NCBI GenBank assembly: GCA_018434945.1
Contig: JAHDOI010000057.1
Coordinates: 1 to 64,000 of the forward strand
Length of the DNA stretch: 64,000 nucleotides
Origin: Selenomonadales bacterium
GTDB taxonomy: Bacteria; Bacillota; Negativicutes; Sporomusales; UBA7701
Direction: 5' to 3'
In this document: positions 58,409 through 62,327 of the stretch, in pieces
How positions within the stretch are numbered: position 1 is the first letter of the stretch
Layout: the number at the start of each line of letters is the position of its first letter
Notes under the pieces: generated by a model
Databases searched by the model: none
Told to the model about the DNA's origin: nothing
The model's input: the letters and a program-made list of their open reading frames with translations, nothing else
Program-made: the position numbers and the translations under genes

Positions 58409-58612
58409 ATGCGATGCCGTCGGCCACACGTCCTCCCCATTGCCGTTCTCCGGCGCGGTCACCCTCGGCAGCCGGCAAATTTTTCCCGGCGAACCGTTTT
58501 CCTATATATGCAAAATACATATTTACGATTATAATTATCTTAGGATATTAATTTTCCACAGCAAACAACTCGAAAATAATTGCAAGGCGCTAGCGCCATT
58601 GGGAGGCTTGCG

Positions 58613-58930
58613 ATGAAAAGAATGCTTTTGTTCGCCGGTGCCGTTCTGCTACTGGCAGCCGTCGCTGTGTCCGTCTTCGGTCCGCACCGCCAGGAGCTGC
58701 AGCTTATCCACCGGGACGGCCCCCGCGCTCTCTACCTGGACACTGCTTCGATGCAAGTAATGAGCGAACCTGAGACCGGACTCCGCTACCTCGACGTCAC
58801 CGTGCGGCAGACCTACGACTTCACCGATAACTACGATCTCACCAGGTACTACGTGCTGGTTGACGCCAGAAAGCTCCAGCCGGTTACCGCCACCGGCTGC
58901 GACAAGGACGGAAAAGTGCTCGAGCTCTGA
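58613..58930 (+). CDS. Small exported protein, interrupted by in-frame TGA
   Basis: A 105-residue protein with an N-terminal hydrophobic signal or anchor (LLFAGAVLLLAAVAVSVFG near residues 4-22) and a beta-rich body (LQLIHRDGPRALYLDTASMQ, YLDVTVRQTYDFTDNY, RYYVLVDARK). This resembles small surface-adhesin-E-like exported proteins, but no family was assigned. ATG at 58613 follows GGGAGG. The frame stops at TGA 58928-58930 right after KVLEL, then continues for 35 more sense codons with protein-like sequence to a second TGA at 59036-59038. The gene is therefore probably a nonsense mutant, or less likely a readthrough or selenocysteine gene. Confidence 0.65.
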   Translation: MKRMLLFAGAVLLLAAVAVSVFGPHRQELQLIHRDGPRALYLDTASMQVMSEPETGLRYLDVTVRQTYDFTDNYDLTRYYVLVDARKLQPVTATGCDKDGKVLEL

Positions 58931-59038
58931 AACCTCATGGATACTACGGTCTCGTGGAGACCGCCCGACCCGGCCACCAACGAGGAAAAGATTTATGACG
59001 CCGCTTTGAACCACGCCCGCAAACGGCGGCTGCTCTGA
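58931..59038 (+). other. In-frame continuation after the TGA, with stem-loop
   Basis: Thirty-five codons in the same frame encode NLMDTTVSWRPPDPATNEEK, then IYDAALNHARK, similar in style to C-termini of small exported proteins. A 7-bp stem with GTG loop (58947-58953 with 58957-58963) starts 16 bases after the TGA. Confidence 0.5.
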
Positions 59039-59065
59039 CCGCTGTTCACCATCCCTGTCCGACAC

Positions 59066-59102
59066 AACAGGCACCGGTACCCAGGAGGTACCGGTGCCTG
59101 TT
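59066..59102. terminator. Bidirectional terminator-like hairpin
   Basis: A 15-bp perfect stem (59066-59080 with 59088-59102). It separates the small exported protein gene from the convergent dehydrogenase gene. T-runs are short. Confidence 0.7.
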
Positions 59103-60087: not shown

Positions 60088-60546
60088 TTATCGGTGCACG
60101 GCCCCGGGCGCTTTTACGGCAATACCGTTTTCTTTTATGTACTCCATCAGCAGTTCGGCTGTCCGCCCGGTGATCTTCAGGCAGCCGCGAAGATGCTCTT
60201 TCGTCTCGAAAGGATGGGGATTGAGCGCCCGGCAGCACGTCCCGCCGAAGTTGCCGCTGAACCGCTCGTGGAAACCCGCGCTGACGAGGTACGCCTCGTC
60301 GCGGCTCTCCTCATTGCTCCTCCGCCCCGCAAGCGCCCCCAGCACCATTATCGAAGCAGCCAGCGCCCCGCACACACAGCCCGAGTGGCCGATACCCCCT
60401 CCGAACCCGGCCGCGAGCCGCAGGGCATCGTCGCCCAGCCCGAGACCGAGCGCCGTGTTGAACGACCGCAAAACCGCCTCGGCGCAGTTGTAGCCGTCCC
60501 GGAAATGTTGCCCGGCAAGCTGTCTGACATCAGTTTCACTATCCAT
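60088..60546 (-). CDS. C_GCAxxG_C_C family redox-type protein
   Basis: A 152-residue protein of the C_GCAxxG_C_C family. NCAEAVLRSF near residues 20-29 and GGGIGHSGCVCGALAASIMVLG near 49-70 carry the signature cysteines, with further Cys in FGGTCCRALN near 99-108 and LRGCLKITG near 119. The family is frequent in anaerobes, next to redox and metal-related genes, and biochemically uncharacterised; a role in electron transfer or cofactor binding is assumed. Its stop lies about 55 bases upstream of the dehydrogenase start, so co-transcription is possible. Confidence 0.85.
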   Translation of the reverse strand: MDSETDVRQLAGQHFRDGYNCAEAVLRSFNTALGLGLGDDALRLAAGFGGGIGHSGCVCGALAASIMVLGALAGRRSNEESRDEAYLVSAGFHERFSGNFGGTCCRALNPHPFETKEHLRGCLKITGRTAELLMEYIKENGIAVKAPGAVHR

Positions 60547-60851: not shown

Positions 60852-62327
60852 ATGGCGAAAGAAACACCGGAAAACGACGCCGGATGGAGACTGGATAACA
60901 GCTACGCCCGTCTCCCGAAAACATTTTTCAGCATCCTGAACCCGACGCCCGTAAAGTCACCGCAGCTGATTATCCTCAACATCCCCCTCGCGGCATCCCT
61001 GGGGCTGAATAGCCGGGAACTGCAAAGCGCGGGCGGCGTGGCGGCGCTCGCCGGCAACATTGTTCCCGCGGGCGCTTTGCCGCTTGCCCAAGCTTACGCA
61101 GGCCATCAGTTCGGGCATTTCACCATGTTGGGCGACGGCCGGGCCATTCTGCTCGGCGAGCAGCTCACTCCCCGGGGCGAGCGGTTCGACATCCAGCTCA
61201 AAGGCGCGGGGCGAACGCCATACTCCCGCGGCGGCGACGGCCGGGCGGCGCTCGGGCCGATGCTGCGCGAGTATATCATCAGCGAAGCGATGCATGCCCT
61301 GGGCATTGCCACCACCCGCAGCCTCGCTGTGGTCACGACCGGCGAACCGGTGATCCGCGAAACCGTTCTGCCAGGCGCGGTCCTGACCCGCGTCGCGGCC
61401 AGCCACCTGCGTGTGGGCACATTCCAGTACGCCTCCGCCCGGGGAAATCCCGGTGATCTCCGGTCCCTGGCCGACTATACGCTGTGGCGCCATTTCCCGG
61501 ACGCCGAACATAGCGACAACCGCTACCTCGCGCTGCTGCGGTCGGTAATCGCACGTCAGGCCAAACTGGTCGCCGGCTGGCAGCTGGTCGGCTTCATCCA
61601 CGGAGTCATGAACACCGACAACATGGCCCTCAGCGGCGAAACCATCGACTATGGACCCTGCGCCTTCATGGACGCCTACGACCCGGAAACGGTTTTCAGC
61701 TCCATCGACGTCACCGGCCGTTACGCGTATGGCAACCAGCCGCACATTGCCGGCTGGAATCTCGCGCGCTTCGCCGAAACCCTCCTGCCGCTGCTCCATC
61801 CCGACGAAACGCAGGCCGTCAGCCTCGCCCAGGACGCTCTGTCGGCGTATCCGGACTCATATAACGCCAACTGGCTCGCCGGCATGAGGGCCAAACTGGG
61901 CATCTTCAACGCCGAACCCGGCGACAAAGACCTTATTGAAGACCTTCTCGACATCATGAAGGAAAAGCGGGCCGACTACACAAATACCTTCCGCGGGCTA
62001 ACGACCGGCGATCAACGGGAAACGGCCCTGTTCGGCGCAGGCGAATTTACGCGCTGGCGGGAAAAGTGGCAGGCCAGACTGGGCAGACAGCCGCAGACCG
62101 CGGACGCCGCCAACAAGCTGATGCGCAGCAGCAACCCCGCGGTAATTCCCCGCAACCACCGGGTCGAAGCCGCTCTCGAAAGCGCCGTGAAACACGGCGA
62201 CCATACCGTCATGGCCAAGCTGCTCGACACCCTTTCCCAGCCCTACGCCTACTCGGCCGAACAGGATGAGTATTCACAGCCGCCCGCCCCCGCCGCATGC
62301 CCCTACAAAACCTTCTGCGGCACGTGA
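60852..62327 (+). CDS. selO: Protein adenylyltransferase SelO
   Basis: A 491-residue pseudokinase-fold AMP transferase (SelO/YdiU) that AMPylates proteins on Ser/Thr/Tyr. Motifs are [18 protein letters not shown] near residues 81-98, [20 protein letters not shown] near 115-134, and the active-site block [20 protein letters not shown] near 254-273. The C-terminus CPYKTFCGT keeps the conserved Cys that is selenocysteine in animals. Length is typical for bacterial SelO. ATG at 60852 follows GGAGGAAAT. No operon partner except a possible link to the downstream transporter. Confidence 0.92.

Follow-up and report, generated by a model that had tools for sequence, protein, structure and literature searches.

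The window, a stretch of 64,000 nucleotides from the start of contig JAHDOI010000057.1 of a Selenomonadales bacterium (genome G000), carries near its end a small gene that opens with ATG at 58613 and whose protein begins MKRMLLFAGAVLLLAAVAVSVFG. The reading frame meets a TGA at codon 106 and continues for 35 sense codons to a second TGA at 59036-59038 (Table 1). Both the coordinates and the frame agree with a preliminary description of this sequence, in which the in-frame TGA and the 35 codons beyond it were first pointed out. Because the gene has its own ribosome-binding site, a conserved upstream block and an inverted repeat on its 3' side, it looks free-standing. The sequence TATCTTAGGATATTAATT at 58536-58553 (+), which directly follows the TATAAT and is kept in three species, is a possible operator. 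As a regulon-wide motif this 18-mer was rejected, since the genome contains one exact site and the other sites have two mismatches and occur near the control level.

Table 1. Features of the candidate gene and its flanks, with positions in the window.
Feature	Position	Strand	Basis and remarks
Selenoprotein gene candidate	58613..59038	+	141 codons read through the TGA; final stop TGA 59036-59038 included
In-frame TGA, codon 106, proposed selenocysteine codon	58928..58930	+	Kept in the G004 and G002 homologues
Proposed bSECIS hairpin, stem CGGTCTC/GAGACCG, loop GTG (58954-58956)	58947..58963	+	Within bSECIS limits in three species; a single compensated pair
Cys96 codon, the only Cys of the protein	58898..58900	+	Kept in three Sec-type homologues; absent from distant ones
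Hydrophobic N-terminus (residues 6-21), probably a signal peptide or membrane anchor	58628..58675	+	Predicted from sequence and model helix 6-21
Coding continuation past the TGA, which finishes the last strand and adds the C-terminal helix (residues 123-137)	58931..59035	+	Constraint like upstream, family match, model
Shine-Dalgarno-like GGGAGG, 6 nt before the ATG	58601..58606	+	Sequence; GGGAGG also in G004, GGAGAGG in G002
AT-rich upstream block with TATAAT at 58530-58535, probable promoter/operator	58502..58553	+	Alignment of three species
Inverted repeat GGCACCGGTACC...GGTACCGGTGCC 3' of the gene, probable transcription terminator	59070..59098	+	Predicted from sequence; G004 and G002 have repeats in the corresponding position

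Six-frame homologue searches, run first on 100 and later on 380 genomes from the class, returned two close homologues, both from other species of the same genus, with identities of 83% (G004) and 62% (G002). Each contains one internal stop, a TGA at the same codon as in the window gene. The three Sec-type frames end together, and the single length difference past the TGA amounts to one codon. The preliminary description had held that homologues ending at the same place would speak against its proposal, and among the three close sequences none ends at the TGA or is without it. When genome contigs were searched with the alignment, the only match was the G002 contig JARKPR010000002.1 (Selenomonadales MAG), and a search of genome contigs with the single sequence gave no match. 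The neighbourhood in G004 is as in the window, with a SpoIIE-type phosphatase upstream and C_GCAxxG_C_C-like and SelO-like proteins downstream, these names being our own reading of the sequences. The flanks in G002 differ from both, so the gene with its TGA has been kept in two different settings. The Sec-type gene is missing from G001 and G005, though both have the selenocysteine system, and relaxed searches of G001, G003 and G005 for the gene gave weak matches or none.

Two of the neighbouring genes deserve description. The SelO-like (protein adenylyltransferase) gene at 60852-62327 (+), which lies 1.8 kb from the candidate, as in G004, encodes a Cys form ending in CPYKTFCGT, and the SelO family has Sec members. 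The C_GCAxxG_C_C-like protein at 60088-60546 (-), which adjoins the candidate gene in G004, is likewise a Cys form, and its family also has Sec forms (PMC13188914).

Coding constraint continues past the TGA. Between the window and G002, where synonymous sites have diverged strongly (dS 0.9-1.1), the ratio dN/dS, computed from separate estimates of dN and dS, is 0.24 before the TGA and 0.28 after it. In the other two pairs, the ratio is 0.16 and 0.20 upstream of the TGA and 0.35 and 0.57 downstream. A neutral simulation, which is crude and bears on a short downstream piece, gave p ~0.03 for the window against G002, p 0.10 for G004 against G002 and p 0.24 for the window against G004. Taken alone, the statistics on the downstream piece are modest. 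The alignment of distant homologues is the stronger point. These TGA-free proteins, from other families of the class, align across the TGA and have an EE..Y.A helix motif in common with the candidate. Nucleotide changes are concentrated at third codon positions of the sense frame, and these coincide with first positions of the antisense frame.

Bacterial SECIS (bSECIS) elements are defined by a loop of 3-9 nt, a stem of 4-16 bp, a G at loop position 1 or 2, a distance of 16-37 nt from the UGA to the loop and a minimum free energy (MFE) <= -7.5 kcal/mol (PMC13188914). In the window, a 7-bp stem begins 16 nt after the TGA and its GTG loop lies 23 nt after it (-9.4 kcal/mol), so that the geometry reported in the preliminary description, and its place within the bacterial range, holds. 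The corresponding hairpins have 8 bp, a GTG loop, 23 nt and -12.8 kcal/mol in G004 and 7 bp, a GTG loop, 20 nt and -11.5 kcal/mol in G002, and those of all three species (3/3) lie within every one of these limits. As positive controls, the fdhA UGA sites found in the genus passed the scan at -8.4 to -10.1, as did that of selD in G000 at -10.7. Compatible hairpins are frequent by chance, however. At E <= -7.5, one follows 9% of the positions inside long ORFs, a background count in which shadow frames are included, and 5/30 of the ordinary TGA stops of long ORFs in the window. For this reason, the hairpin alone is weak evidence. Only 2 of its 17 bases vary, and these are partners of each other, forming U-A in two species and C-G in the third; with three sequences and one compensated pair, this count of covariation is not significant by itself. 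When the protein was held fixed and synonymous codons were drawn by local usage, an equally good hairpin was obtained in 0/2000 cases for the window, 5.7% for G004 and 3.6% for G002. Over longer stretches of 45 and 60 nt, the total MFE does not stand out consistently, and an Rfam search returned no cis element. What goes beyond chance is the joint conservation, in three species, of the TGA, an open frame behind it and the hairpin.

The machinery for selenocysteine insertion, which the preliminary description had proposed to look for, is present in the genome. In G000, selA (C52:12646-13989) stands directly before selB (C52:14025-15863), selD contains one TGA (C52:29651) and is itself Sec-containing, a tRNA-Sec with the anticodon tca is encoded at C73:12856, and the fdhA genes contain TGA. 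The same set of genes is found in G004 and G001. In G002, the candidate gene is accompanied by two tRNA-Sec genes and a UGA-containing fdhA; selA, selB and selD were not found in this draft genome. Because the three sel genes of G000 lie within 18 kb on one contig, a single gap in the G002 draft MAG could remove all of them together. The two tRNA-Sec genes of G002 (L020 and L026; G002:C3:114974 and 52777) are ~62 kb apart on one contig, which is unusual. Neither tRNA-Sec nor sel genes were found in G003, an assembly that is 87% complete and from which the candidate gene is also absent. Despite this, G003 has two fdhA genes that hold the Sec UGA (L063 and L085), and the missing genes are probably assembly gaps. 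A genome-wide use of TGA for Trp is unsupported, as the candidate gene and a neighbour end in TGA and the TGA of fdhA stands at a known Sec site.

The AlphaFold2 model of the protein has a mean pLDDT of 84, with block means of 80-95 past the TGA. In it, the chain past the TGA closes the last strand and then folds into the C-terminal helix 123-137, and a 105-residue product would be without this part. The N-terminal hydrophobic segment would probably lead to export to the periplasm or to anchoring. In fold, the whole domain matches Haemophilus influenzae protein E (3zh7; Z 10.4, 103 residues, 2.8 A), with 12% identity and no Pfam profile match, and the adhesin function is not implied. TdeM of Pseudomonas aeruginosa (9m3l, deposited as an endolytic muramidase) also matches (Z 11.8, 106 residues, 3.1 A; Foldseek E 0.005), with 8% identity and a likeness in fold alone that does not imply the function. 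Unrelated structural matches come next in the list at Z 6.6 and below. Judged by fold, the protein belongs with the protein E (surface-adhesin protein E) group, and a search for membership by sequence profile gave no match in the Pfam or PDB sequence libraries.

Cys96 is the single conserved Cys of the three Sec-type proteins and does not occur in distant homologues. In the model, it ends strand 88-96, and residue 106 is within strand 102-107. If these strands pair as a hairpin, C96 and U106 would not be neighbours. An intramolecular S-Se bond between them was considered and set aside, since the modelled strand positions are against it and it would be unlikely without movement; the partner may be another molecule. 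By analogy with other selenoproteins, which is the only ground for proposing it, the most likely role would be in extracytoplasmic redox chemistry or in the binding of selenium or metal.

Distant relatives are found among the uncharacterised exported proteins of Negativicutes (e.g., L030, L032, L033 and the G000:C11 paralogue L002), which are 20-34% identical across parts of the domain or most of it, the region past the TGA included. These proteins are without the TGA and without Cys96, and the residue at the Sec position is variable. In the G000 paralogue, it is Gly (VLELU in the candidate, ILELG in the paralogue), and no distant homologue has Cys there. In the alignment at the TGA, suggested in the preliminary description as a check, both close homologues have TGA and the distant ones have varied residues other than Cys. 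A variable residue without a stem-loop, which was to have spoken against the proposal, is seen in distant homologues of 20-30% identity and in no close homologue. Most Sec sites have Cys counterparts, which is usual and not required. Because the residues in the distant homologues are varied and none is Cys, Sec seems, judging from the alignment, to have been acquired at a site with no ancestral Cys. Such a gain is unusual and slightly weakens the case for selenocysteine. The longer exported paralogue, represented by L002 (G000:C11; 313 codons), L044 (G004:C6) and L075 (G001), seems to consist of two copies of the same domain, and G001 has it without the Sec-type gene.

Based on this evidence, UGA106 very probably encodes selenocysteine in a small, probably periplasmic protein, because the TGA is conserved, coding constraint extends past it, the conserved stem-loop has a compensated pair, and sel genes and tRNA-Sec are present. 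Counted against this are the small number of close sequences (three), the distant homologues without Cys, the apparent separation of positions 96 and 106 in the model, the sel genes not found in the G002 draft and the frequency of SECIS-like hairpins by chance. Of the two possibilities raised in the preliminary description, selenocysteine and readthrough, the TGA, the constraint, the stem-loop and the sel genes favour the former. In programmed readthrough without selenium, a near-cognate tRNA (e.g., that for Trp) would read the UGA at low efficiency with the aid of the hairpin, giving short and long forms. Conservation of the UGA with a downstream hairpin would agree with this, as would the distant homologues without Cys at position 106. 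Nevertheless, it is an unlikely explanation, given a genome with the full Sec system, hairpins whose spacing, loop and stem fit the bSECIS rules in 3/3 species, a short form that would be without the last helix kept by the whole family and a clade-specific Cys that accompanies the UGA.

It is very improbable that the TGA is a true stop and that the downstream stretch is kept as a separately started peptide, as an antisense ORF (141 codons, 58649-59074, minus strand) or as an RNA element. Most of the gene does have an open antisense frame in each of the three species. The codon positions at which changes occur, mostly third in the sense and first in the antisense frame, led to the rejection of an antisense gene. 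Moreover, the part past the TGA aligns with the C-terminal end of distant homologues from the same protein family. The preliminary description regarded a nonsense mutation as the simpler explanation. For one sequence, a nonsense mutation or a sequencing error in a gene being lost is indeed the simplest reading, and the gene is absent from two other genomes of the genus. This view did not survive the comparison of species. The same TGA occurs in three separately assembled species with selection on both sides of it, which rules out a relic and leaves this explanation scarcely credible.

With selenocysteine at codon 106, SelB, bound to the hairpin that starts 16 nt past the UGA, would hand Sec-tRNA(Sec) to the ribosome, and selenocysteine would be inserted. 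Translation would then proceed for 35 codons, finishing the protein-E-like domain with the rest of its last beta strand and its C-terminal helix, and would end at the second UGA. The N-terminal hydrophobic segment would probably direct the protein to the periplasm, where the Sec, perhaps together with the clade-specific Cys96, may take part in redox chemistry or bind metal or selenium species.

The candidate is like the known bacterial selenoproteins whose UGA is read by means of SelB and a bSECIS element (FdhA and SelD): it has an in-frame UGA, a hairpin that follows at 16-37 nt and has G among its first loop positions, and accompanying sel genes and tRNA-Sec. In contrast to known selenoproteins, it has no sequence relation to the listed families, no Cys counterpart and no UxxC/CxxU motif. 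The table of a 2026 review (PMC13188914) comprises 119 families and subfamilies of prokaryotic selenoproteins, many of which have thiol-redox motifs, and we found no match in it to either the motif or the fold of the candidate. Searches of Pfam, NCBIfam and PDB sequences gave no family match for the protein, and literature searches on selenoproteins in Negativicutes or Sporomusa gave nothing relevant among the papers listed. The candidate most likely represents a new selenoprotein family, not found described in the literature and family list searched. The fuller proposal, which we favour by a little, is that of a new family in diderm Firmicutes with Sec at a non-Cys site of a protein-E-like exported domain, a clade-specific Cys and a function in extracytoplasmic redox or selenium/metal handling.

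Pairs of Cys and TGA are a standard route by which selenoproteins are found. If the proposal is true, such searches would miss this candidate family, since none of its homologues has Cys at the Sec position, and annotation would be expected to truncate such genes. It also suggests that Sec may be gained at sites not previously occupied by Cys, and it would offer a small protein for studying the role of a solitary Sec beyond the cytoplasm.
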